Source: a virus
Strand: one strand, 5' to 3'
IMG/VR virus record: IMGVR_UViG_3300043467_000237
Coordinates: 1 to 32,403 of that record
DNA length: 32,403 nucleotides
The notes beneath the pieces are model-generated. The model worked only from the letters and a program-made list of their open reading frames with translations, was not told where the DNA came from and ran no database searches. Below are positions 2,146 through 24,221 of the stretch, piece by piece; position 1 is the stretch's first letter, and each line of letters begins with the position of its first letter. Made by a program: the position numbers and the translations under genes.

Positions 2146-4149
2146 TTATTTTTTCTTGATTACAACATGTTTCATCCATCCATGACGGCATTGGAACTCA
2201 ATCGTTCCGTTGTTATTCCAATAACCCCCGGCGCGTTTGAATACCGAATATCCCAAACGTTCGGAAAGTTTTTGAATATCTTGTCGGCTGAACATTCTTG
2301 ATTTGCTCAATCCAACCATTTTCACGCAAAACGGACGGGATGTTTTAAGTAACTCCGGGCCGGAAACGCCATCGCGTTTTTCATAGGTGTACATCACTTT
2401 AATTTCCGGTAATGTTTTCGCCGGCAACCTTTCCAATATTTTACGAACGGGAATTCCGCCGGCAATTTCGGCTTTGATTATTTCACGTTTCACCAGGTTT
2501 TCAACGATATCATCAACAACGTTTGTATCATATTTCAATGCCTCGGCGATTTGCACATTCGATAAATCCGGTTGTTTCTTTAACAACTCCATGATTTTGG
2601 CCTCCCTTTCGGTGAATTCCGAAACCGCGGCGAATGACATTTTGAAATCATCATCATCCCCGGTGTAAACTTCGCTTTTTAATATGCTGAAATTTTCCCT
2701 ATCCTCGCCATATTCCGCAAACATATCCGCGATGAATTCATCGGAATCATCCATGAATTGTTGATCCGCCATCATTGGGTTTTCATCCAATCCCAAATAT
2801 TGATTGATTTGATCATCGGTAAACCCATACGCGGACAATTGAATCGATGCCTGGCCCTTTGTTAGTTTACCCTGGCTGAACAATCTCACGATCCGTAAAA
2901 GGTTTTGTTGTTGGCGCCCGGACAATTTAATCAATGCCTCATTTCCCATTTGTTCCGGCATCACGTTATTAACGGCCGTTGGGATGCCGTATTTTGCCGG
3001 ATCAATTCCGAACTTCTCCAATATCCATTCCTTCGGTAATAGTTCCTTAAATTGCACCGGATCAAGTTCCATGCCTACCGGTTCAACATCCTTTAATTTA
3101 TATTCGGCATCAACACCGGCAACGCTTGAAAAATACCCGGTGATTTCCTCAATTTGTTTTTGTTTGTGCGTTACATAGGTATTTTTGAAAATTTCATAGG
3201 CCGTTTTCAATTCGCTTGAATTTCCCAACTTCCCTTCCTGCTGAATTCCAAAAAGCAAAGGATGTGTAATATTGTGGCCACTGAAAATATTATTCGTGAT
3301 TAGATTATCAACCGCGCCAAAATCTTCCTTTGTTAAATCCGATGCGCCCAAATCATCAATTGTCGGACGCTTTGACGGATCGTTGTTGAATCCAATCAAA
3401 ACCTTTTTACCCTCGGCCCCGGTGGCGGCGTTTTCTAAACGCGCGGTAATTTTGCGTTTCTTATCTTCATCCGGTTCACCGTTGTAAAAATTAATGAACT
3501 TTGACGCGCTGAATCCGGTTTTTGCATTTGTCAACGTGTGCCTTGAAACCTCAATATCCGATTCAACCCAATTGCACGCGGCAACCCATGACGGCAACGC
3601 GTATGGGTTTTTTCCGCAACGATATTCTTTAAAATAAAATATTGATGTTTTATTGTTCGATGGATTGAATGCCGGATATTCCGCTTCGGGTTGTTCCCAT
3701 GTATTGTTCCATTTTTTACGATAGTAAAAACATGTGTTATCCTCATTCGCCCGGATGCGATCGTATGACATGTGATAAACATTGAACCCCCCGGCAAGTT
3801 TTGGAATCACTTGCAAATAAACCCCTCCAAAATTCTCAATGTCCAAACATGCCAATTTCATCAACTGATCCCATGATTGTTTTTCATTGGCCTTTTGCAA
3901 AAACACTTTTCCGGGTTCGGATTCGGTCATCAACCCGTTTCCCATGATGTAAACACATTTACCATTGATGATGGCGTTGTGTTTTGCCGATTTGTTGTAT
4001 AGCCACAACAAATATGTTGGATAATCGTTCCGATCACCAAACGGCACGAATTCAACGCCACGCTTTTTTTCCATTAATGGAATGCGTGAATCGGCGAATT
4101 CCATTGCGCCGACCTCGATCATTTCATCATTTGTATTTTTAACCGGCAT
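2146..4149 (-). CDS. Portal protein with C-terminal winged-helix-like and MuF-like segments
   Basis: This 667-aa protein is the likely dodecameric portal through which DNA is packaged. The N-terminal ~450 residues (FADSRIPLMEKKRGVEFVPFGDRNDYP..., then NAIINGKCVYIMGNGL) look like Bacteroidota phage portals. Beyond it lies a segment resembling a winged helix (FTEREAKIMELLKKQPDLSN, about residues 512-566). The end carries an SRPFC motif and a final CRHGW motif, reminiscent of minor head (SPP1 gp7/MuF-like) proteins. I chose the ATG at 4149, which overlaps the upstream stop by 11 bases; an in-frame ATG at 4176 would add nine residues. Both starts follow an identical AAGGCT sequence, so the choice is uncertain. 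The portal call is firm; the fusion reading is inference. Confidence 0.85.
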   Translation of the reverse strand: MPVKNTNDEMIEVGAMEFADSRIPLMEKKRGVEFVPFGDRNDYPTYLLWLYNKSAKHNAIINGKCVYIMGNGLMTESEPGKVFLQKANEKQSWDQLMKLACLDIENFGGVYLQVIPKLAGGFNVYHMSYDRIRANEDNTCFYYRKKWNNTWEQPEAEYPAFNPSNNKTSIFYFKEYRCGKNPYALPSWVAACNWVESDIEVSRHTLTNAKTGFSASKFINFYNGEPDEDKKRKITARLENAATGAEGKKVLIGFNNDPSKRPTIDDLGASDLTKEDFGAVDNLITNNIFSGHNITHPLLFGIQQEGKLGNSSELKTAYEIFKNTYVTHKQKQIEEITGYFSSVAGVDAEYKLKDVEPVGMELDPVQFKELLPKEWILEKFGIDPAKYGIPTAVNNVMPEQMGNEALIKLSGRQQQNLLRIVRLFSQGKLTKGQASIQLSAYGFTDDQINQYLGLDENPMMADQQFMDDSDEFIADMFAEYGEDRENFSILKSEVYTGDDDDFKMSFAAVSEFTEREAKIMELLKKQPDLSNVQIAEALKYDTNVVDDIVENLVKREIIKAEIAGGIPVRKILERLPAKTLPEIKVMYTYEKRDGVSGPELLKTSRPFCVKMVGLSKSRMFSRQDIQKLSERLGYSVFKRAGGYWNNNGTIEFQCRHGWMKHVVIKKK

Positions 4150-4519
4150 AGCCTTTGTATATCGTTTCGGGTTCATAGCCTTGTTGTATTAAGTTTGCCG
4201 CCGGATTCAATAGCATCTTGCCACATTCAACCAAATTCAACCCGGATGGATTCAAATTTGTTGAACTCGATTGCTCATAAACCTCATAGGAATATTGCCC
4301 GGCCTGGGCGGTTGCAAATAAAGTAATTGTATTAAACGTGTATATGTTGACGCGTTCCGGATAACTTGATGTGTCGGACGCGGAATTTACAATGATCTTA
4401 TATTCAACTTTCGTTGATACGTTCGTAAACACAAACAAATAATACGGATTGGAAATCGTTGTTGATTCGTTCAACGTTACGATTGTGTCCGATTGTTGCC
4501 CTATGGTGTAAACGATCAT
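4139..4519 (-). CDS. Conserved virion-associated protein of unknown function
   Basis: The 126-aa protein starts MIVYTIGQQSDTIVTLNEST and contains a beta-rich pattern (NPYYLFVFTN, then YSYEVYEQSS) and a late VECGKMLLN segment. I recall similar small proteins beside capsid and portal genes in Bacteroidota phages, but know no established function. The ATG at 4519 is chosen over an upstream TTG because that longer reading would start inside the terminator hairpin at 4556-4583. It overlaps the portal start. A head decoration or connector role is possible from position only. Confidence 0.65.
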   Translation of the reverse strand: MIVYTIGQQSDTIVTLNESTTISNPYYLFVFTNVSTKVEYKIIVNSASDTSSYPERVNIYTFNTITLFATAQAGQYSYEVYEQSSSTNLNPSGLNLVECGKMLLNPAANLIQQGYEPETIYKGYAG

Positions 4520-7995: not shown

Positions 7996-9735
7996 TTATC
8001 CTAAACGGGCAGCGCGTTGCAAACGTACATTGCGTTCATCGGAATTCCTAATATCCGAATCCAACACATACGCGCGATTAACCCCACCGGCGGCGGCGTT
8101 TCCAATGTTTTGAATCGTTGATGCGCTTAATGATGTCGCGGTTGATTGTGGCGCAACGGGCGCGGCAACGCTTGCCATCGTTGGCGTTGATCCACCACCG
8201 CCACCACCGGCCCCGGGTACCTGGGTTCGACCAATGTTCCGGACGGCGGAAAACCCGGACGCTAAAATTGTGGCAACCGATGCAACCTTTTGAATCGTTC
8301 CGAATGGTTCCGGGATGATTGTTTTATTCCGCAATACTTCGGTAACGCCCAAATAAGTATTGATTAACGCTTGGGATATTGCCAATGCTTTGCCGGCGAT
8401 GGTTTGTTTTCCAACCAGGTCGCCCAATGCGCCTAACGTTTCGCCGGTCATTTTGTAGGTGTCGCGTTTTTGTTGCTCGAATAACAAAACGGCATCGGCC
8501 GCCTCTTTATCCTTGATGATAATTTTATCTTTTAGATCAAGGGTTTTTTTTGCGTCCGCCTCGGTTTTTTCCCATTCGGCAGCCATGAATGCGTCATCCT
8601 CTTGTTGTTGCTTTAACGCATCAGCTTTTTCTTTTTCCGTTTGTTGTTGCGCTAATTTGATGCGATTGTCGGAAATCTCTTTTTGTGTTTCATATTGAAT
8701 TTTAACCAATGCAAGTCGGTCGCGTTCCTCTTGTTCCGCAATGGCTTTCTTTTTATCGGCTTCTTCTTTTCGCTTCGCTACACGCTTATCGCTTTCCTCT
8801 TTTTCAATCGATGTGATTTGTGATTGCGTCCGTTTCGAAATCTTCGCCATCGATGCCGCTTCATTTTCGGCGGCGATAATCATGGAATCAATCGCGGATA
8901 ATTTTTCCTTATCCACGTTTTTCATGCCTTGCAATTCCAATCGGGCCGCCTTCAATGATTCGATTGAACCCTCACGAATCTTTGCAATCAAATCGCCACG
9001 CGCCCCCAATTCCATCGCCATCGCTTCCATCGTGAGCCTGGCTTTCATTTGGTTAATCTCAATAACCTTTTGCGATTCTTCGCGTTCAATCCGGGCCGCT
9101 TCCTTTAATGCCGCAACGCGATCCTTAATTGGTAAATTTGCATCGGCGGCGATTTCGCGCGCATCTTGCAATTTTCGATTTGCTTCCGCCGTTGCAATGG
9201 CGGAATTCTTTTGCGCATCTTCCAAATCATCCAACGCTTCGGTGATTTCGCCAAACCTTTGCGCCGTTTGTTCCGTTGTAACGCCCAACGCCGACAATGC
9301 GCCAATCAATCCGCCGGTAATGTTTTCTATCAACCAAACAAACCCGTCAATCAACGGCGTTAAAAATCCGGTGATGAATGTATTGAACACGCCGGACAAT
9401 GTACCGAATGCCTTTCCCAATGAATCTGAAACGCCTTCCATTTGTTTGAACTTTTGGAACAACGCCACAACCAAACCGGCAAGCAATGCAAAAACGCCGA
9501 TGATCGGATTCGCTTTCAAAATATTGAACGCTTGGGTTAATGCCCCAACCCCCTGGGATGCCTGGCCCAATGCCGGCGATAACGCGCCCAATTCGCCTTT
9601 CAGTTTGCCGAATGAATTTCCGGCATCCTTTGTTTGCGTTGATGCGCCCTTTAATGCGTCCTGCGTTTTGCCTATCTTCTCCGCCGAATTCCCGGTGTCA
9701 ACCTGTAACTGCGCTTTTATGTTTATGTCTGCCAT
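7996..9735 (-). CDS. Tail tape measure protein
   Basis: The 579-aa protein sets tail length. The N-terminus is a helical Gln/Lys/Gly-rich segment, followed by hydrophobic stretches (NPIIGVFALLAGLVVALFQK at about 76-95, and GFLTPLIDGFVWLIENITGG at about 122-141). A long charged coiled-coil region runs from ~160 to ~430, then another hydrophobic helix region (~450-500), a poly-Gly hinge (AGGGGGGSTP) and a short C-terminal domain ending RLQRAARLG. This is the standard tape-measure layout. It is rather short, which predicts a short siphovirus tail. The ATG overlaps the upstream stop as TAATG. Confidence 0.85.
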   Translation of the reverse strand: MADINIKAQLQVDTGNSAEKIGKTQDALKGASTQTKDAGNSFGKLKGELGALSPALGQASQGVGALTQAFNILKANPIIGVFALLAGLVVALFQKFKQMEGVSDSLGKAFGTLSGVFNTFITGFLTPLIDGFVWLIENITGGLIGALSALGVTTEQTAQRFGEITEALDDLEDAQKNSAIATAEANRKLQDAREIAADANLPIKDRVAALKEAARIEREESQKVIEINQMKARLTMEAMAMELGARGDLIAKIREGSIESLKAARLELQGMKNVDKEKLSAIDSMIIAAENEAASMAKISKRTQSQITSIEKEESDKRVAKRKEEADKKKAIAEQEERDRLALVKIQYETQKEISDNRIKLAQQQTEKEKADALKQQQEDDAFMAAEWEKTEADAKKTLDLKDKIIIKDKEAADAVLLFEQQKRDTYKMTGETLGALGDLVGKQTIAGKALAISQALINTYLGVTEVLRNKTIIPEPFGTIQKVASVATILASGFSAVRNIGRTQVPGAGGGGGGSTPTMASVAAPVAPQSTATSLSASTIQNIGNAAAGGVNRAYVLDSDIRNSDERNVRLQRAARLG

Positions 9736-11765
9736 TAGTATATTCTATTTATGATTTTTAAAAGTTCCACATTGCAAACATCTTCGCTTGATGCGTTGAA
9801 ATCTGTGATCTTGTTTAAACGATACAAAACGCCATCGATCCAAATCAACCTGGCAAAATCTAATTTGTAAATATCTTTAAAAGCCAATTTCATGGTGCAT
9901 GTCAATAACCGGGAATCCTTGTCGGTGATTTCGGCCATGTATGCACTCCAATAATCGTTAAATAAATTGTTAGGCGTGTAATTAGCAACTTCAAAAATCA
10001 ATTCTTTTGGAGGCGAAAAACACAAATCAAATGTTGGCGTGATCGGATCGTTAATATGGCCGGCGTATCCGTACGCGGTTTGACTTCCAACGGATGATCC
10101 GGCGTTGAGAATGTTCCAGGTTCCAAACCCCGTCATTTTCTTTGCCTGCATAATCCGGATAACCGAATCCATTTTGTCCTCCGAATTATTCGAATTTGAC
10201 AATTTGTAAATTGATGGAAATATCTTATCCTTTCCGGTGAACTTTGTCAAAACCGAATTCGCGAAAATCAATTCAACCGATGTCGTTTCCTTTGCGAATT
10301 CATATTCCGTATCATAAATGAAATCGCCATACCCCTCATTAAATTTCTTTCGATAGTTTTCCGAAAAAAAATCATTGTCTTGTTTGAACTTATAATTGTA
10401 GTAACGCGAATTCAATTCGGACATTGGTTTGATGCGCATCGGTTTTGCGCGATCAACCTTCAATGACCAATCAACCGATGTGGCATCTTCGTAAAACGTA
10501 ACGAATGGCAATACCTTTAATTTTTTATCCGTTTCGTAATCTTCAAAAACGTAAAGGTTGAACATTTTACATATTGTCGAAAAGAACTCGCGTTGGAAAA
10601 TACCTTTCGGAATGATATCGTTTACCGAAATCGTATCACCATATCCAATCGAAACCTGGCCCGGTGTCAATAATTCAATTTGAAACGATGTTCCGGTATT
10701 GATTGAATAATTGCTAACATTCGCCTGCACTTCAACCGAAATTGCATCCCCCGGATTGATTGTGATATTGTTAACCGACAAATACAATATTGTTGCATAC
10801 CCCGGGGTAAATGAAACAATATCTGAATCCGTTGAAATTGTTGTTGAATTTTGTTTCAAATTTACTCTAAACGTATCCAACACCGGATCAATAGTATTGA
10901 TAACGGCATCAATTTCTAATATTATGTTTGTTGTTATCGCCGATGCTCCGCCAAACGTGAATGTTGTATTTCCTAAACTTGCCGTAAAACTGCCTGCGGT
11001 TGAAACTGTAAAAGCAATTTTTTGCGCCGATGTATATGTTGTTGTTGTTGGCGTTGCTTGAAACGCCGTTGTATCATAGCGATACAATTCTTTTTGATTG
11101 TGTGGAATAACCAACCGATTGAACAACGCCGATGATAACGCCGGGAAATCCCATGTGTAGCCGGACGCGGTAATTGTTTTTTCCAATATTTCCCTAACAT
11201 ATAACGCCGGGCGGAATGTACTAAAATCAAAATCGGTTTTATTTGTGGACGCCGCGCCGTAATCAATCAATGGAAAATAAACACCGGCCCCGGCGATAGT
11301 ATTCCACGATGCGGTTATGTTAGTGTAGTTCCATGTTGTATTGTATGCGCTGAAATCTAACTCCTCGATTTTCTTATTCGCCAACGCCGAAACAAATCCG
11401 CCCAGGGTTCCGAATACTGCGCATTCGTATTCAATGAATCCATCTTCAACAATTATTTCAAGGATTCGAAAAACGCCTGTGAATACCTGCATGTTATCGG
11501 CAAAGATTATCGCATCTGCCGAAACCGCCGGATTGAAATTCGCGCCAATGTTTGTTTGCGCCGGATTGTAATCATTGCGCGCGTTGATGTTGAAAATGTT
11601 TCCGAATATCTTATTATTGTTTTTTGTACCCGGTAAAACAATTGTTTTGGAAAACGTTGTATTCTTTGCGCCAAAATCCTTGATATCATCAATCGACATT
11701 GTTAGCAATGTGCTAAATGATTCGTTTATGTCAATCGCTTGTTTTTCTACAAAAAGCTGAATCAT
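9735..11765 (-). CDS. Tail structural protein, candidate distal tail/baseplate component
   Basis: The 676-aa protein begins MIQLFVEKQAIDINESFSTL and continues DDIKDFGAKNTTFSKTIVLP, a start I have seen in conserved Bacteroidota phage tail proteins encoded near the tape-measure gene. The remainder is beta-rich with many Thr/Ser/Asn, a YRYDTTAFQATPTTTTYTSA low-complexity stretch and a C-terminal LARLIWIDGVLYRLNKI-like beta-hairpin (starting FARLIWID). It is tightly coupled: ATGA overlap with the upstream gene and TAATG with the tape measure. A baseplate or distal tail role is inferred from size, composition and context. Confidence 0.65.
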   Translation of the reverse strand: MIQLFVEKQAIDINESFSTLLTMSIDDIKDFGAKNTTFSKTIVLPGTKNNNKIFGNIFNINARNDYNPAQTNIGANFNPAVSADAIIFADNMQVFTGVFRILEIIVEDGFIEYECAVFGTLGGFVSALANKKIEELDFSAYNTTWNYTNITASWNTIAGAGVYFPLIDYGAASTNKTDFDFSTFRPALYVREILEKTITASGYTWDFPALSSALFNRLVIPHNQKELYRYDTTAFQATPTTTTYTSAQKIAFTVSTAGSFTASLGNTTFTFGGASAITTNIILEIDAVINTIDPVLDTFRVNLKQNSTTISTDSDIVSFTPGYATILYLSVNNITINPGDAISVEVQANVSNYSINTGTSFQIELLTPGQVSIGYGDTISVNDIIPKGIFQREFFSTICKMFNLYVFEDYETDKKLKVLPFVTFYEDATSVDWSLKVDRAKPMRIKPMSELNSRYYNYKFKQDNDFFSENYRKKFNEGYGDFIYDTEYEFAKETTSVELIFANSVLTKFTGKDKIFPSIYKLSNSNNSEDKMDSVIRIMQAKKMTGFGTWNILNAGSSVGSQTAYGYAGHINDPITPTFDLCFSPPKELIFEVANYTPNNLFNDYWSAYMAEITDKDSRLLTCTMKLAFKDIYKLDFARLIWIDGVLYRLNKITDFNASSEDVCNVELLKIINRIY

Positions 11766-19760: not shown

Positions 19761-20231
19761 CTACAAACATACGATTTTATCATACAATTCAAAAAATTGT
19801 TCCGGCGTTCCGATGAATTCATAAATGCCACCGGCTTTGCGTTCCCGGATTTGTTCCAACAATTGATCCGGACGCGGTTTATCCCGGCCTACCTTAATTT
19901 CAATTTGAACCGCCTTTCCAAAAATTGTACAGGAAATATCGGCACTGCCTTTCCGCGTTGATGATGGCAACCACTTTTTAACGCCTATTTTTGCCCCCGA
20001 TGGTTGTTTCTCAACGCCATCTATCAACCGCCCCATTACGTTGATCCTGGTGGCCCGGTGGCCTTTCCATGATAGGTAATTGCAAACAAACGATGTGAGG
20101 CCGTTTGCGGTGTCAACCTTCGGAACCTTCGGTTCTAAATAATACCCGTCTTTGTAGGCCGATGGATATTGAATCTTAAACCATTCCAAATGCGCGGACA
20201 TGTAACGGGGGTGATCAGTTTTTTTTGCCAT
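19761..20231 (-). CDS. VRR-NUC-type nuclease
   Basis: The 156-aa protein ends in a PD-(D/E)XK-like core: GSADIS (D98), QIEIKVG (E111, K113) and PDQ (Q123), then IRERKAGGIYEFIGTPEQFF. That is the signature of small phage VRR-NUC domains, which cut branched or flapped DNA during replication or recombination. Residues 1-80 (MAKKTDHPRYMSAHLEWFKI..., LTSFVCNYLSWKGHRATRIN) are an N-terminal extension. It overlaps the preceding small gene by 17 bases. The last codons contain the -7 element of a promoter for the downstream unit. Confidence 0.8.
   Translation of the reverse strand: MAKKTDHPRYMSAHLEWFKIQYPSAYKDGYYLEPKVPKVDTANGLTSFVCNYLSWKGHRATRINVMGRLIDGVEKQPSGAKIGVKKWLPSSTRKGSADISCTIFGKAVQIEIKVGRDKPRPDQLLEQIRERKAGGIYEFIGTPEQFFELYDKIVCL
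19764..19793 (-). promoter_or_regulatory. Bacteroidota-type promoter at the 3' end of the nuclease gene
   Basis: TTTG (19793-19790), 18 bases, then TATGTTTG (19771-19764) on the minus strand match the -33/-7 consensus. The promoter is inside the coding end of the VRR-NUC gene. Its predicted transcript meets a terminator within about 85 bases. Confidence 0.65.
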
Positions 20232-20460
20232 CGGAATAGGTTTCGGTGTAGTATTTTAAAAAATATGAAGGTTCTTTATCCCAATACTCGGCTCCACCAT
20301 TTACCAAATCTCTCTGATATTGCATCCATTTAACACCTTGAATGAATGTTTCTGAATGTTGTTCTTTCTCCATTTCTTTTGCCATCTCAAAAGACTTTTC
20401 AATTAGTATGCCTTTTTTGTGTAAATGATGCAACCATTCAACTGCCGTTTGTTTTTCCAT
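20215..20460 (-). CDS. 81-aa hypothetical protein
   Basis: The protein begins MEKQTAVEWLHHLHKKGILI and is mostly helical and charged, with FIQGVKWMQYQRDLVNGGAE and an aromatic C-terminus (YFLKYYTETYSDGKKN). The 'TAVEWL' start is common in small unannotated Bacteroidota proteins, as I recall, but carries no assigned function. It overlaps the nuclease gene by 17 bases and lies 11 bases after the zinc-ribbon gene, so the three form one short operon. Confidence 0.65.
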   Translation of the reverse strand: MEKQTAVEWLHHLHKKGILIEKSFEMAKEMEKEQHSETFIQGVKWMQYQRDLVNGGAEYWDKEPSYFLKYYTETYSDGKKN

Positions 20461-20471
20461 ATTATTATTTT

Positions 20472-20642
20472 TTAAATTATCCCAAACATTGAATCGCGTT
20501 TCTTTTCATCGTTCCGTTTCTTACGTTCCGCATTTTCGCATAATTTACAATAAACCGCCATCCTATCTTTTCGGGCGGTTGATTTGCTGAACATTGTTTT
20601 TTCTTTGAACTTATTGCATTTCGGGCATGTTTTTCCGTCCAT
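20472..20642 (-). CDS. 56-aa zinc-ribbon protein
   Basis: A 56-codon frame reads MDGKTCPKCNKFKEKTMFSK then an AVYCKLCENAERKKRNDEKK segment. The two CxxC pairs (C6/C9 and C32/C35) about 22 residues apart form a typical treble-clef or zinc-ribbon site; the tail is strongly basic. The layout closely matches the 61-aa gene at 26733-26918 on the other strand, suggesting a shared family. Such proteins often bind DNA, RNA or RNA polymerase. The start (ATG 20642) sits after the SSB terminator, so it is the first gene of the next unit. Confidence 0.7.
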   Translation of the reverse strand: MDGKTCPKCNKFKEKTMFSKSTARKDRMAVYCKLCENAERKKRNDEKKRDSMFGII

Positions 20643-20684
20643 TGTTATTTTATTTTTGAGTTGTTTCCAAAATGGAAAAGGGTT

Positions 20685-20715
20685 AAAAAATGAGCCAGGG
20701 TAGAAACCCCGGCTC
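20685..20715 (-). terminator. Intrinsic terminator of the RecT-methyltransferase-SSB operon
   Basis: Minus-strand GAGCCGGGGT and ACCCTGGCTC form a 10-bp stem (one G-T pair) around a 4-base loop, followed by ATTTTTT. It begins 21 bases past the SSB-like stop codon. Confidence 0.9.
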
Positions 20716-20736
20716 GTTCACAATTAAAAACAAATA

Positions 20737-21009
20737 TCAGAATGGTAGCGAATCAATCTCAACTTGCGCAGGTGCATCCGGTTGCCTTAATTCGGATTTT
20801 TTGAAATTACCGATGTAAACTTTTTTCTCTTTTGCTTCGCGTTGTTCCTTTGATTGACGCACCGAAACGGAACCGATGTTCCCGTATTGGTCAACATTTT
20901 CATTGATCCAAATGTCGATGTTCAAATACAACTTGCCGTTTTTTGCTTGCGTTAAATTTCCTTTTGGGATGTCGGAAACGCAAATTGATCCATTGAATAA
21001 CTGATTCAT
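20737..21009 (-). CDS. SSB-like protein
   Basis: The 90-aa protein begins MNQLFNGSICVSDIPKGNLT. It has a beta-strand pattern compatible with a short OB-fold (KLYLNIDIWINENVDQYGNI, then GSVSVRQSKEQREAKEKKVY) and ends in EIDSLPF, like the acidic partner-binding tip of single-stranded DNA-binding proteins. It is the last gene of the recombination operon and precedes a strong terminator. The SSB identification rests on size, tail and neighbours (RecT, exonuclease, primase), not a full domain match; it is shorter than bacterial SSB. Confidence 0.55.
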   Translation of the reverse strand: MNQLFNGSICVSDIPKGNLTQAKNGKLYLNIDIWINENVDQYGNIGSVSVRQSKEQREAKEKKVYIGNFKKSELRQPDAPAQVEIDSLPF

Positions 21010-21011
21010 AA

Positions 21012-21932
21012 TTATTGCCGGGTATCGGTTGCCGGTGCCGTTAAAAGTTCATATTGTTCAATTGCTTTAAATATTTGAAAAACCACATTTGGAACGATTG
21101 CATTGCCCCCGGCCTTTATTGATTCGTTTCGCCATTTAGAAAAGGTAATTCCGTCCAATCTGGCGGAAATCCCATCATTTCCATCACAAATCGGGGATTG
21201 AGTTGGGAAATTTTTCCACCCCGTTCTTGAATATATGGATTTAATATTGTTTCCGCTAAATGTTTTTGTTCTATTCTTTTTTCCCAACTCGGACTTTTTG
21301 TTGTTGAATGTTTTGAATCGTGTGTTGTCGGTGTCGGTAACATCCCCATTGCCATTGCTCGCGTTAGTGTTACTGAATGCATTGAACCCTCTTTCACTTG
21401 GGTTGATTTCATTGTCGCTGTTGCATTGGTTGCATCCATTGCCATTGGAGTAGGCAACAAACCATACCCTGTCTCTTCTATGGGGGGCGTTGACGGCCGC
21501 AGCTGGCAATACATACGGGAATACTTCGTACCCCGCAGCTTCCAGGTCAGTTTGCACTTCGTGGAAAACCAACCCTCCTGACCAATTAACAAGGCCGAAA
21601 ACGTTTTCGCCCACGACCCAACGTGGTTGAATTTCTTCAATTGCTCGCAACATGTGTGGCCATAAATGGCGTTCATCTTCTTTTCCTTTTCGTTTCCCGG
21701 CTTGGGAATATGGCTGGCATGGGAATCCTCCTGTGAGAATATCAATTTTGTTTGCATATTTTGTGAAATCTGATTTTGTAATGTCAGTAAATTGCTCGGC
21801 ATTTGGCCAATAGTGGTGTAGTACCTTTTGCCCGAATGGATTCCATTCGCAATGAAAAACATTTTCCCACCCCATCCACTCGGCTGCCAGGTCGAAACCT
21901 CCAATTCCGCTAAATAGTGATCCATGTTTCAT
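21012..21932 (-). CDS. dcm: DNA (cytosine-5) methyltransferase
   Basis: The 306-aa enzyme methylates cytosine at C5 in a sequence it alone defines. Motif I is LFSGIGGFDLA (6-16), motif IV GGFPCQPYSQAGKR with catalytic C72, motif VI GENV (108-111), motif VIII HRRDRVWF (151-158) and motif X GGNAIVPNV (275-283). Residues 160-265, where the target-recognition domain lies, are unusually rich in Asn, Ser and Gly, and the same DNA is open in a second frame (21116-21925). The ATG at 21932 overlaps the exonuclease stop (ATGA). Likely role is protection from host restriction or marking phage DNA. No cognate restriction enzyme is visible. Confidence 0.9.
   Translation of the reverse strand: MKHGSLFSGIGGFDLAAEWMGWENVFHCEWNPFGQKVLHHYWPNAEQFTDITKSDFTKYANKIDILTGGFPCQPYSQAGKRKGKEDERHLWPHMLRAIEEIQPRWVVGENVFGLVNWSGGLVFHEVQTDLEAAGYEVFPYVLPAAAVNAPHRRDRVWFVAYSNGNGCNQCNSDNEINPSERGFNAFSNTNASNGNGDVTDTDNTRFKTFNNKKSELGKKNRTKTFSGNNIKSIYSRTGWKNFPTQSPICDGNDGISARLDGITFSKWRNESIKAGGNAIVPNVVFQIFKAIEQYELLTAPATDTRQ
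21116..21925 (-). CDS. Overlapping-frame protein inside the methyltransferase gene
   Basis: A 269-codon frame, shifted by one base and starting seven bases after the methyltransferase ATG, runs through most of that gene on the same strand. From about residue 65 it resembles, as I recall, a stand-alone phage protein often found beside cytosine methyltransferases. Landmarks are EDSHASHIPKPGNEKEKK, SWAKTFSALLIG, STKCKLTWKLRGTKYSRMYC, two LPTP motifs (157-160, 196-199) and the end LNPRFVMEMMGFPPDWTELP. The first ~60 residues look like a shadow of the methyltransferase frame, so the true start may lie further in, for example an ATG near residue 84. The function is unknown. It may be real overprinting or a fossil of a nested gene. 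Confidence 0.5.
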   Translation of the reverse strand: MDHYLAELEVSTWQPSGWGGKMFFIANGIHSGKRYYTTIGQMPSNLLTLQNQISQNMQTKLIFSQEDSHASHIPKPGNEKEKKMNAIYGHTCCEQLKKFNHVGSWAKTFSALLIGQEGWFSTKCKLTWKLRGTKYSRMYCQLRPSTPPIEETGYGLLPTPMAMDATNATATMKSTQVKEGSMHSVTLTRAMAMGMLPTPTTHDSKHSTTKSPSWEKRIEQKHLAETILNPYIQERGGKISQLNPRFVMEMMGFPPDWTELPFLNGETNQ

Positions 21933-22492
21933 ATCGCAATATTTTCCGGAATTCCGTATTTCAAAATTTGCCGTTCCCAAAATTCTGGCGCTTGTCTTAT
22001 CAACGCCTTTTCGGTGTTTAGCGTTTTCGGACATACCCGAATGATGATCCCGGTGGGCGTGTTGGTTGCCAAACAATACCCGGTTAATTGATTGCCATAT
22101 CCGAAATGATCAATTGATTTTCCCAATGGCATTTCCGAAACCTTTAAATCAACAATCAACCTACCGGGCCGGATCAAATCAATCCGCCCCTTGTATTGCA
22201 TCGACAATCCGGCGTGTTCCATGTTGCATGTTACCGATACTTCGGATTGCATGTGTTTTACCAATTCGCCGATTTGGAACAATAATACCCGGGCAATCGG
22301 AACAACCAATTCACGATTGGCTCCGTTGTATTTTTCCGGCTCCAAAATATAATTGTGTACGGCGGTTCCCAACATCATTTTTTTAGTCGGTACGAAATCG
22401 CCGTTTTTTATTCCGGAATAGGAAAGGCCAGGCAATGCGCGGTATTGGTCAAAATCCAAACCTGGATGAACTTTCAATCGTGTTACTTGCAT
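21929..22492 (-). CDS. PD-(D/E)XK exonuclease (RecE/YqaJ-like)
   Basis: The 187-aa protein has GTAVHNYILEPEKYNG (H46), the E of SEVSVTCN (84), GRIDLI (D105) and IVDLKVSE (D115, K117). These residues form the metal-binding core of PDDEXK exonucleases of the RecE/lambda-exo partner type. It chews one strand of double-stranded DNA ends so the RecT-like protein can anneal the other. RecT is two genes upstream, and the coiled-coil gene lies between (10-base overlap). The methyltransferase ATG overlaps its stop. The protein is on the short side for the family. Confidence 0.85.
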   Translation of the reverse strand: MQVTRLKVHPGLDFDQYRALPGLSYSGIKNGDFVPTKKMMLGTAVHNYILEPEKYNGANRELVVPIARVLLFQIGELVKHMQSEVSVTCNMEHAGLSMQYKGRIDLIRPGRLIVDLKVSEMPLGKSIDHFGYGNQLTGYCLATNTPTGIIIRVCPKTLNTEKALIRQAPEFWERQILKYGIPENIAI

Positions 22493-23523
22493 ACTTCAAT
22501 CGTTTCAATGCCAGGGATTACATTTCCGGTTTCGTTGATATGCTTTGCCAACGCATCCGCCATTTGTCCGATGGTTAACTTTGTCCAGGACTTGACGCGA
22601 ACGTATTGGTTAACGTATGGCCACAAACGAACAAAGTTTGAAACGATTGTTTTTGCCCATTGCTCCGTTTCATCAACCTTGATTTTGATTTCCTTTTTTA
22701 CTTTGGGCGTTTCAACGATCATGGTTTCGGCCTCGGCAATCAACGCGTTTGTTGCGGTTTCGAATTCCAAATCCATTTCGAATGCCATTTCGGCGATTTG
22801 TTTGTGCTTTTCGATGGATTCGATGGCAACATCAACATTCGCCAAATCGTTGGAATAGGTCGACCAAATTACGGAAATGTTTTTGATTGCCGTTTGTAGA
22901 TCATCCGCCGGATTGTATTTTTCAATCGAATCATAAATTTCTTTTGCCAAACCATCCGAAACCAATTTCCGGTCGAACTTTTGAAATTCCGGCAATTTCC
23001 ATTCGTTCAAAATCCTTTTCATGTCTTGAACCATCGCCGGGATGGAATGTGGCGGATGTTTTTCTTTTAGGCAATTCGAATATGATTCCAACGTGATGCG
23101 TTCAAGTTCATGGCGATATTGGGCCGCGATTCGGAACCATTCGTTGACAATGTGCGCTTTCAATGCCGCGGTTTCATTGGCGATGGCTTGTTGTTTTTTG
23201 GCATTTTCCGCGGCATCAATACGCATTTTTAATTCTACCGCCTCGGCATCCTTAATGTCATCCGCCATGCGTTTTTCAAATGCCGTTGCCGGTGTGATCA
23301 ATTTATCATCAATCATGCGCGTAAATTCCAAACGTTTGGATTTCGCATCCGCCATCACTTGTTTTGCCGATTTGATATTGTGTTGAACAACATCAAGGGG
23401 ATTACCATCGATGCCATTCATGTAATCTTGAACGGCCAATTCGGCCCGTTGCAATTCATCAAACAACGCGGTTTTGATATCCGCTAACTTAATCCATCCG
23501 GATTGTACGGGTGTTAAATTCAT
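22483..23523 (-). CDS. Coiled-coil protein between RecT and exonuclease
   Basis: The 346-aa protein is mostly helical, with long charged stretches (KRMADDIKDAEAVELKMRID, then ERITLESYSNCLKEKHPP) and a C-terminal KINETGNVIPGIETIEVCK-like end (starting HINETGN). I do not recognise a family. Location inside a single-strand annealing cassette, sharing ATGA with RecT and 10 bases with the exonuclease, suggests a recombination or Gam/anti-nuclease-like accessory. That is inference; no catalytic motif is seen. Confidence 0.75.
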   Translation of the reverse strand: MNLTPVQSGWIKLADIKTALFDELQRAELAVQDYMNGIDGNPLDVVQHNIKSAKQVMADAKSKRLEFTRMIDDKLITPATAFEKRMADDIKDAEAVELKMRIDAAENAKKQQAIANETAALKAHIVNEWFRIAAQYRHELERITLESYSNCLKEKHPPHSIPAMVQDMKRILNEWKLPEFQKFDRKLVSDGLAKEIYDSIEKYNPADDLQTAIKNISVIWSTYSNDLANVDVAIESIEKHKQIAEMAFEMDLEFETATNALIAEAETMIVETPKVKKEIKIKVDETEQWAKTIVSNFVRLWPYVNQYVRVKSWTKLTIGQMADALAKHINETGNVIPGIETIEVCK

Positions 23524-24221
23524 AGAATAAAGTTTTCTTTGTTTTTAGATTGATTTGCAACATCCATTTGAAGGCGTTGGCCTTCGGTCAATTCAACGTT
23601 TTCAATTGCCCATTCGAACAATGTCAATTCGGAACCGGTTGCCATTTGACCGGCTTCAATCCCGGCGCAAAGTTTTTCGAATTGTTCCGGTGTTAATGAT
23701 CGTTTTGTTGACTTCGGCGTTTCGATAACTTCGGCGGTTGTTTCTTCGGTTACCGATTCCATTTCTTCGGGAACATAAACCGGGTTTTCGTAAATGTCGG
23801 GCGTGTACCACTTAACGCCATTTGACATGGCGCGCGCGAATAACATGTTTTTCGGGAATCGATCAATGTTTTTGGTTCCGGCTTTCTTTGCATCTTCAAT
23901 GGTGAATGTGGAAACCCCCAATGAATTCGAACCCTGGAAATATTCGATTGAACAAATTTTATCCGAATGTTCCAATACTTTGTAATCATACTTACCAAAA
24001 CCTTTAACCCTGGCGGCCATTAATCCGGCCCCGATGGTGGGCTTTCCTTGAATGATATGAATTCCCGACATGGCGGCGAATGGTGAAATTCCCATTTCGG
24101 CCCCGGCCATGATTTTCACAACGGCTTGTTGTGCCGATTTGATGTCGGAAAACATCCCGGATTTGAAAAACGTTTCGCCGATTGTTAGCGCATCGGCCGC
24201 GCTTTTTACGATTTGATTCAT
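23520..24221 (-). CDS. recT: RecT-like single-strand annealing protein
   Basis: The 233-aa protein has ADALTIGETFFKSGMFSDIK, then AQQAVVKIMAGAEMGISPFA, IIQGKPTIGAGLMAARVKGF and a KNMLFARAMSNGVKWYTPDI segment, the core pattern of phage RecT-family annealing proteins. It pairs complementary single strands during replication-linked recombination. The C-terminal ~70 residues (VTEETTAEVIETPKSTKRSL, then TEGQRLQMDVANQ) form a variable tail. It is the second gene of the leftward early operon and overlaps the next by four bases. Confidence 0.8.
   Translation of the reverse strand: MNQIVKSAADALTIGETFFKSGMFSDIKSAQQAVVKIMAGAEMGISPFAAMSGIHIIQGKPTIGAGLMAARVKGFGKYDYKVLEHSDKICSIEYFQGSNSLGVSTFTIEDAKKAGTKNIDRFPKNMLFARAMSNGVKWYTPDIYENPVYVPEEMESVTEETTAEVIETPKSTKRSLTPEQFEKLCAGIEAGQMATGSELTLFEWAIENVELTEGQRLQMDVANQSKNKENFIL

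Follow-up and report, generated by a model that had tools for sequence, protein, structure and literature searches.

In the virus record IMGVR_UViG_3300043467_000237 of IMG/VR (here called the window, the whole stretch of 32,403 nucleotides that was analyzed), a gene for a C5-cytosine methyltransferase encloses a second long open reading frame (ORF) on the same strand. We find that both frames are under selection, that the methyltransferase chain (alpha) carries no recognizable motif IX, and that the product of the second frame (beta) matches, in single-chain methyltransferases, the part that alpha lacks. Judged from sequence comparison, the two proteins very probably work jointly as one DNA-methylating enzyme. 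We put at about 0.82 the probability that they represent a single C5-cytosine methyltransferase made as two chains from overlapping frames, with the architecture of M.EcoHK31I and with motif IX and target recognition residing on beta. The locus belongs to a group that is widespread in phages; its kind is known, though rarely recognized. Overlapping genes that are so long and so widely conserved are unusual, and, if beta carries recognition, the pair offers a testable system for the joint evolution of two proteins on shared DNA, of which one is diversifying.

In the arrangement that we propose, alpha would be the catalytic large domain (motifs I to VIII and X), responsible for cofactor binding and catalysis, and beta would supply what alpha lacks, namely a motif IX-like segment and a variable target recognition region built of cassettes. 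We infer that the two chains assemble into one active enzyme, that DNA is recognized by beta, and that beta is translated from an internal start. The Asn/Ser-rich stretch of alpha may then be a passive spacer imposed by beta. The likely biological role is modification of phage DNA against host restriction.

Layout of the locus and selection on both frames

The second ORF comprises 269 codons (21116-21925, minus strand) in the +1 frame within the methyltransferase ORF. As read from the sequence, alpha starts at the ATG at 21930-21932, which gives a protein of 306 amino acids, and not at the TTG at 22076; this ATG shares bases with the stop codon of the gene upstream (ATGA). The features of the locus are listed with the evidence behind them (dN/dS, ratio of nonsynonymous to synonymous substitution rates; AF2, AlphaFold2; pLDDT, predicted local distance difference test).

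21012-21932, minus: alpha, C5-cytosine methyltransferase large chain, 306 amino acids (PF00145, motif scan, AF2 and Foldseek)
21116-21676, minus: beta, second protein in the +1 frame, 186 amino acids from its likeliest start, ATG 21674-21676 (conservation, overlap dN/dS, phrog_1008)
21123-21635, minus: purifying selection on the beta frame, about alpha codons 100-270 (codon-position diversity and overlap dN/dS)
21714-21722, minus: alpha motif IV, catalytic PCQ (motif scan)
21468-21479, minus: alpha motif VIII, RRDR (motif scan)
21446-21460, minus: beta LLPTP, where the first LPTP cassette begins; overlaps the end of the alpha motif VIII region
21329-21343, minus: beta MLPTP, where the second LPTP cassette begins
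21147-21437, minus: alpha residues 166-262, Asn/Ser-rich, putative spacer (dN/dS and pLDDT)
21155-21205, minus: beta motif IX-like segment, QLNPRFVMEMMGFPPDW (dN/dS, hhalign, weak match to a canonical profile)
21093-21107, minus: alpha motif X, GNAIV, 3' of the beta stop (motif scan); only here is constraint back on alpha

Selection was estimated in 95 non-redundant homologues by a frame-separating count written for this analysis in the manner of OLGenie, with bootstrap intervals. Diversity at the third positions of the methyltransferase codons was 0.44 before the overlap, 0.13 to 0.18 in the motif IX-like segment, and 0.46 to 0.48 directly past the beta stop. The overlap dN/dS values (alpha/beta) were 0.16/1.16 before beta, 0.53/0.62 over motifs V to VIII, 1.55/0.72 in the variable region, 0.76/0.38 in the motif IX-like stretch, and 0.33/1.33 past the beta stop. 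The regions are set apart by their bootstrap intervals. An alignment based on beta reproduced the result (2.02/0.47 in the LPTP module; beta dN/dS of 0.35 for beta residues 155 to 180). In finer windows, constraint on beta set in near alpha codon 100 and ceased at the beta stop. The motif IX-like segment is the most constrained part of beta, with its strongest point at MEMMGFPPDW (alpha codons 251-260), where beta dN/dS fell to 0.07. Selection on each frame thus indicates that two functional proteins share this DNA, as had been proposed by a reading of the sequence alone. That reading was also right that a 269-codon frame exists in the +1 register, but constraint begins near ORF residue 98 and not near residue 65, the point from which it had seen a likeness to a phage protein. 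The first 98 or so codons are not conserved as protein: their dN/dS is about 1, and relatives have stops at dcm codons 9, 14, 37, 45, and 50. Therefore, beta probably starts at the ATG at 21674-21676 (ATG85).

The Asn/Ser-rich part of the methyltransferase frame had been taken for a target recognition region. Most of alpha residues 166 to 262 show no purifying selection, and the stretch is predicted to be disordered; the constrained frame here is the second one, so that the second protein itself is more likely the recognition subunit. In the variable part of this stretch, alpha dN/dS reached 1.5 to 2.0, which we do not take as positive selection because the synonymous class that serves as the yardstick is itself constrained by beta. 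In other words, alpha values above 1 mean that purifying selection is not detectable, not that alpha is adapting. The related proposal that evolution of target recognition is tied to the second protein is supported.

The second frame is also kept open. A scan of IMG/VR with this frame found relatives encoded by 476 stretches, so the alternate frame does have homologues, in the hundreds, and in close relatives it is open. At all 80 loci retained from these stretches, the methyltransferase lies in the same +1 register. A second scan used the methyltransferase frame as the query, so that this sample was not picked by the second frame, and both scans pooled gave 103 unique virus loci (one of which, L010, is uninformative because its methyltransferase frame is very short). 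Between codon 95 and a point 45 codons short of the end, a stop in the +1 frame occurred in only 2 of the 103 (L124 and L143), compared with a mean of 15 stops in the +2 frame of the same loci. Synonymous-codon shuffling of 10 informative genes predicted 3 to 6.6 stops in the +1 frame, which was open in 0 to 2% of shuffles; for the window gene the figure was 0.55%. An independent replicate, a gammaproteobacterial phage set related to epsilon15, had the +1 frame open in 55 of 55 cases and repeated the selection pattern, and among streptococcal methyltransferases with an in-frame motif IX, used as a control, it was open in 0 of 41. The +1 overlap was present at 80 of 80 bacterial or prophage loci from a genome scan with the beta alignment; because beta was the query, these loci are informative on register and context but do not give an unbiased frequency. 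In an indirect search for M.EcoHK31I itself, 11 of 398 Pseudomonadota genomes held a beta relative; on the examined strand 7 distinct loci scored, and all of them overlap alpha in +1. The observation of a second conserved frame is real and stronger than first claimed.

Proposed division of the methyltransferase motifs between the chains

Alpha matches the Pfam family PF00145 (E value, 7e-49), but only over profile positions 1 to 247 of 324. A motif scan of alpha detected motifs I, IV, VI, VIII, and X, whereas the pattern for motif IX was absent. The AF2 model of alpha is mostly of high confidence for residues 1 to 165, drops below a pLDDT of 50 for residues 166 to 262, and resumes with a confident motif X helix. 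By Foldseek the model matches M.HhaI (E value, 1.4e-13; 167 columns). Alpha thus departs from the M.HhaI type of monomer, in which motif IX is in the same chain as motifs I to VIII, and contrasts in this respect with the streptococcal control.

Beta ends in SQLNPRFVMEMMGFPPDWTELPF followed by a short tail. It gave nothing significant in Pfam or NCBIfam, and PDB sequence searches yielded no match. The window beta does match phrog_1008 (E value, 3.2e-22; beta ORF residues 57-260), as do the beta proteins of eps15, PhiXhv-5, K1G, Lily, R9.1, BS-TP4, and others, from phages of Bacteroides, Porphyromonas, Lacticaseibacillus, Paenibacillus, Xanthomonas, Escherichia, and Salmonella. This family is named "DNA methyltransferase," a name that is silent on the nesting of the tested members inside a second methyltransferase frame. 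The family also matches residues 118 to 405 of an enzyme of Gordonia phage ChadMasterC that is a single chain. The beta profile aligns to the interval between motifs VIII and X, that is, to the variable region and motif IX, of single-chain actinophage methyltransferases (hhalign probability, 94.9%).

For M.EcoHK31I, Lee, Kam and Shaw reportedly showed in 1995 that the gene for the small chain lies within that for the large chain in a different frame and that both chains are required in vitro; the window pair shows the same nesting. M.EcoHK31I is a two-polypeptide C5-methyltransferase (YGGCCR), and alpha likewise has motifs I, IV, VI, VIII, and X without IX, a likeness in motif layout. Its large chain carries motifs I to VIII and X and its small chain carries motif IX (PMC3404938). 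The window pair differs in sitting in a phage genome and in that the selection data put the recognition region on beta. M.AquI is likewise a split C5-methyltransferase with motif IX on the second chain. In its layout, however, motifs IX and X are both on the small chain, whereas motif X of the window lies in the alpha frame past the beta stop. Mycobacteriophage OKCentral2016 and Streptomyces phage Sebastisaurus resemble M.AquI more closely: past motif VIII, frame 0 comes to a stop, and LPTP, the IX-like segment, and motif X are all found in the +1 frame. Two loci represent the split actinophage versions.

L163, 1989-2982: split actinophage version
L165, 1986-3039: split actinophage version

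Alternative explanations

Possibly, beta has a function of its own, for instance as a phage regulator or anti-restriction protein, and merely shares its DNA with a self-sufficient methyltransferase. Beta is annotated as a gene of its own in Lily (gp63), K1G (ORF30), and Porphyromonas phage018a, and no solved relative of it was found by sequence. The sequence-only reading described it as a stand-alone neighbor of methyltransferases, yet we found no stand-alone copy: phage018a has the alpha frame underneath, and the record of P AB-2017 is cut off, its end lying 22 bases from the start of the "Mte8-like" coding sequence; in K1G, a relative of this phage, the pair is nested. A self-sufficient alpha is difficult to reconcile with its lack of motif IX and with a variable region that is both unconstrained and disordered in the model. 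Moreover, beta aligns with exactly the part of single-chain enzymes that alpha is missing, and the split actinophage versions carry motif X on the beta-type protein. We therefore regard a separate function as unlikely.

Programmed +1 ribosomal frameshifting might instead fuse the catalytic half of alpha to beta, in place of an independently started beta. Such a mechanism would suit the invariant +1 register, the occurrence of single-chain fusions in actinophages, and the lack of a fully conserved beta start codon. However, a single frameshift would lose motif X, since this lies in the alpha frame past the beta stop, and ATG85 is kept in 78 of the 95 relatives, with AAGGA upstream of it in the window. 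Frameshifting is, in our view, unlikely as well.

Two further explanations are extremely improbable. Other parts of the window do contain long spurious ORFs, and the first 98 or so codons of the second frame are unconstrained, as would be expected of a by-product of amino acid composition and codon bias from which no protein is made, but purifying selection from near codon 100 to the beta stop contradicts this, and a chance ORF was rejected on the selection pattern, the synonymous shuffles, and the replicate (55/55) against the control (0/41). A selfish insertion has a precedent in phage ShiLan, in which an out-of-frame HNH homing endonuclease is overprinted in a phage methylase (PMC11855218). 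Overprinting is common to both cases, but the window beta has neither HNH nor any other significant Pfam family, it overlaps the conserved motifs V to VIII and is not confined to an insert, and no insert-free allele was seen among the relatives examined; an HNH insertion was rejected on the Pfam matches of the second frame.

Several observations nevertheless weigh against a two-chain enzyme with motif IX and recognition on beta. The best local match of beta in a canonical streptococcal methyltransferase profile is indeed motif IX, RKLTPRECWRLQGFPDW, but it is weak (E value, 0.2), and a strict regular expression for motif IX found no match in beta. AF2 gave no usable fold for beta alone (pLDDT, 55), which fits folding that depends on a partner but proves nothing. 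The predicted recognition domain of M.EcoHK31I has been placed on the large chain (PMC3404938), unlike in our assignment. In Bacteroides faecalis KCTC 15687 (L250) and a Bacteroides metagenome-assembled genome (L249), 3286-4402, alpha is broken by stops and beta is open, either because the locus is decaying or because the C terminus of alpha is less needed. Finally, the start of beta is uncertain: the open frame runs upstream of ATG85 to 21925, and relatives that lack ATG85 have alternative in-frame starts.

Distribution, annotation, and cassettes

We verified the nested arrangement in phages whose hosts are Bacteroidota, Firmicutes, and Proteobacteria, and actinophages have split or fused versions; this cross-phylum spread comes from the public records named here and one beta-based genome scan and is not a census. 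Both nested genes are present in the records of K1G (ORF31/ORF30), Lily (gp62/gp63), and PhiXhv-5. The labels of nested pairs are hypothetical, Mte8-like, or DNA methyltransferase, with Lily gp63 called "g62 internal gene," and the relation as subunits is not stated in those records. Alpha alone is annotated in R9.1, Lc-Nu, C72C1, and BS-TP4, and beta alone in Porphyromonas phage018a (L082, 2456-3070), where the underlying alpha frame is unannotated. The Escherichia coli ECCTRSRTH03 prophage (L343, 2486-3655) has its methyltransferase recorded as two partial pseudogenes; nevertheless, no stop interrupts its alpha frame at any point or its beta frame across the whole conserved stretch. Annotation often retains a single frame or labels the gene as partial, which would leave half of the enzyme out of sight in many records. 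Should recognition lie on beta, the wrong frame has been searched for the specificity of these phage methyltransferases. Our literature search found no paper describing a nested alpha/beta pair in phages.

Across relatives, beta has one to four LPTP-type motifs and, counted from ATG85, 176 to 289 residues. Three cassettes of 32 to 44 residues each occur in 12 loci (beta proteins of L001-L160), as grouped by simple clustering. The non-overlapping alpha halves of cassette-sharing loci have a mean identity of 0.77, compared with 0.757 for random pairs. That shared cassettes sit beside alpha halves about as different as random pairs points to cassette exchange and suggests that beta cassettes pass between phages irrespective of alpha similarity. 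More tentatively, and with some doubt on our part, beta might be a modular recognition subunit whose specificity evolves by swapping LPTP cassettes that have to remain open in both frames, with alpha tolerating the outcome as a disordered spacer.

The neighbors of the alpha/beta pair (19761-24221, minus strand) resemble recombination and replication proteins: RecT-like at 23520-24221, exonuclease VIII-like at 21929-22492, and endonuclease-like at 19761-20231. A terminator-like hairpin of 10 pairs (20692-20715, minus strand), 3' of the gene at 20737-21009, possibly marks the end of the operon containing alpha and beta. Elsewhere in the window, an ORF for 337 amino acids on the plus strand (8741-9754) lies antisense to a minus-strand gene for 579 amino acids (7996-9735) and is probably a shadow ORF.
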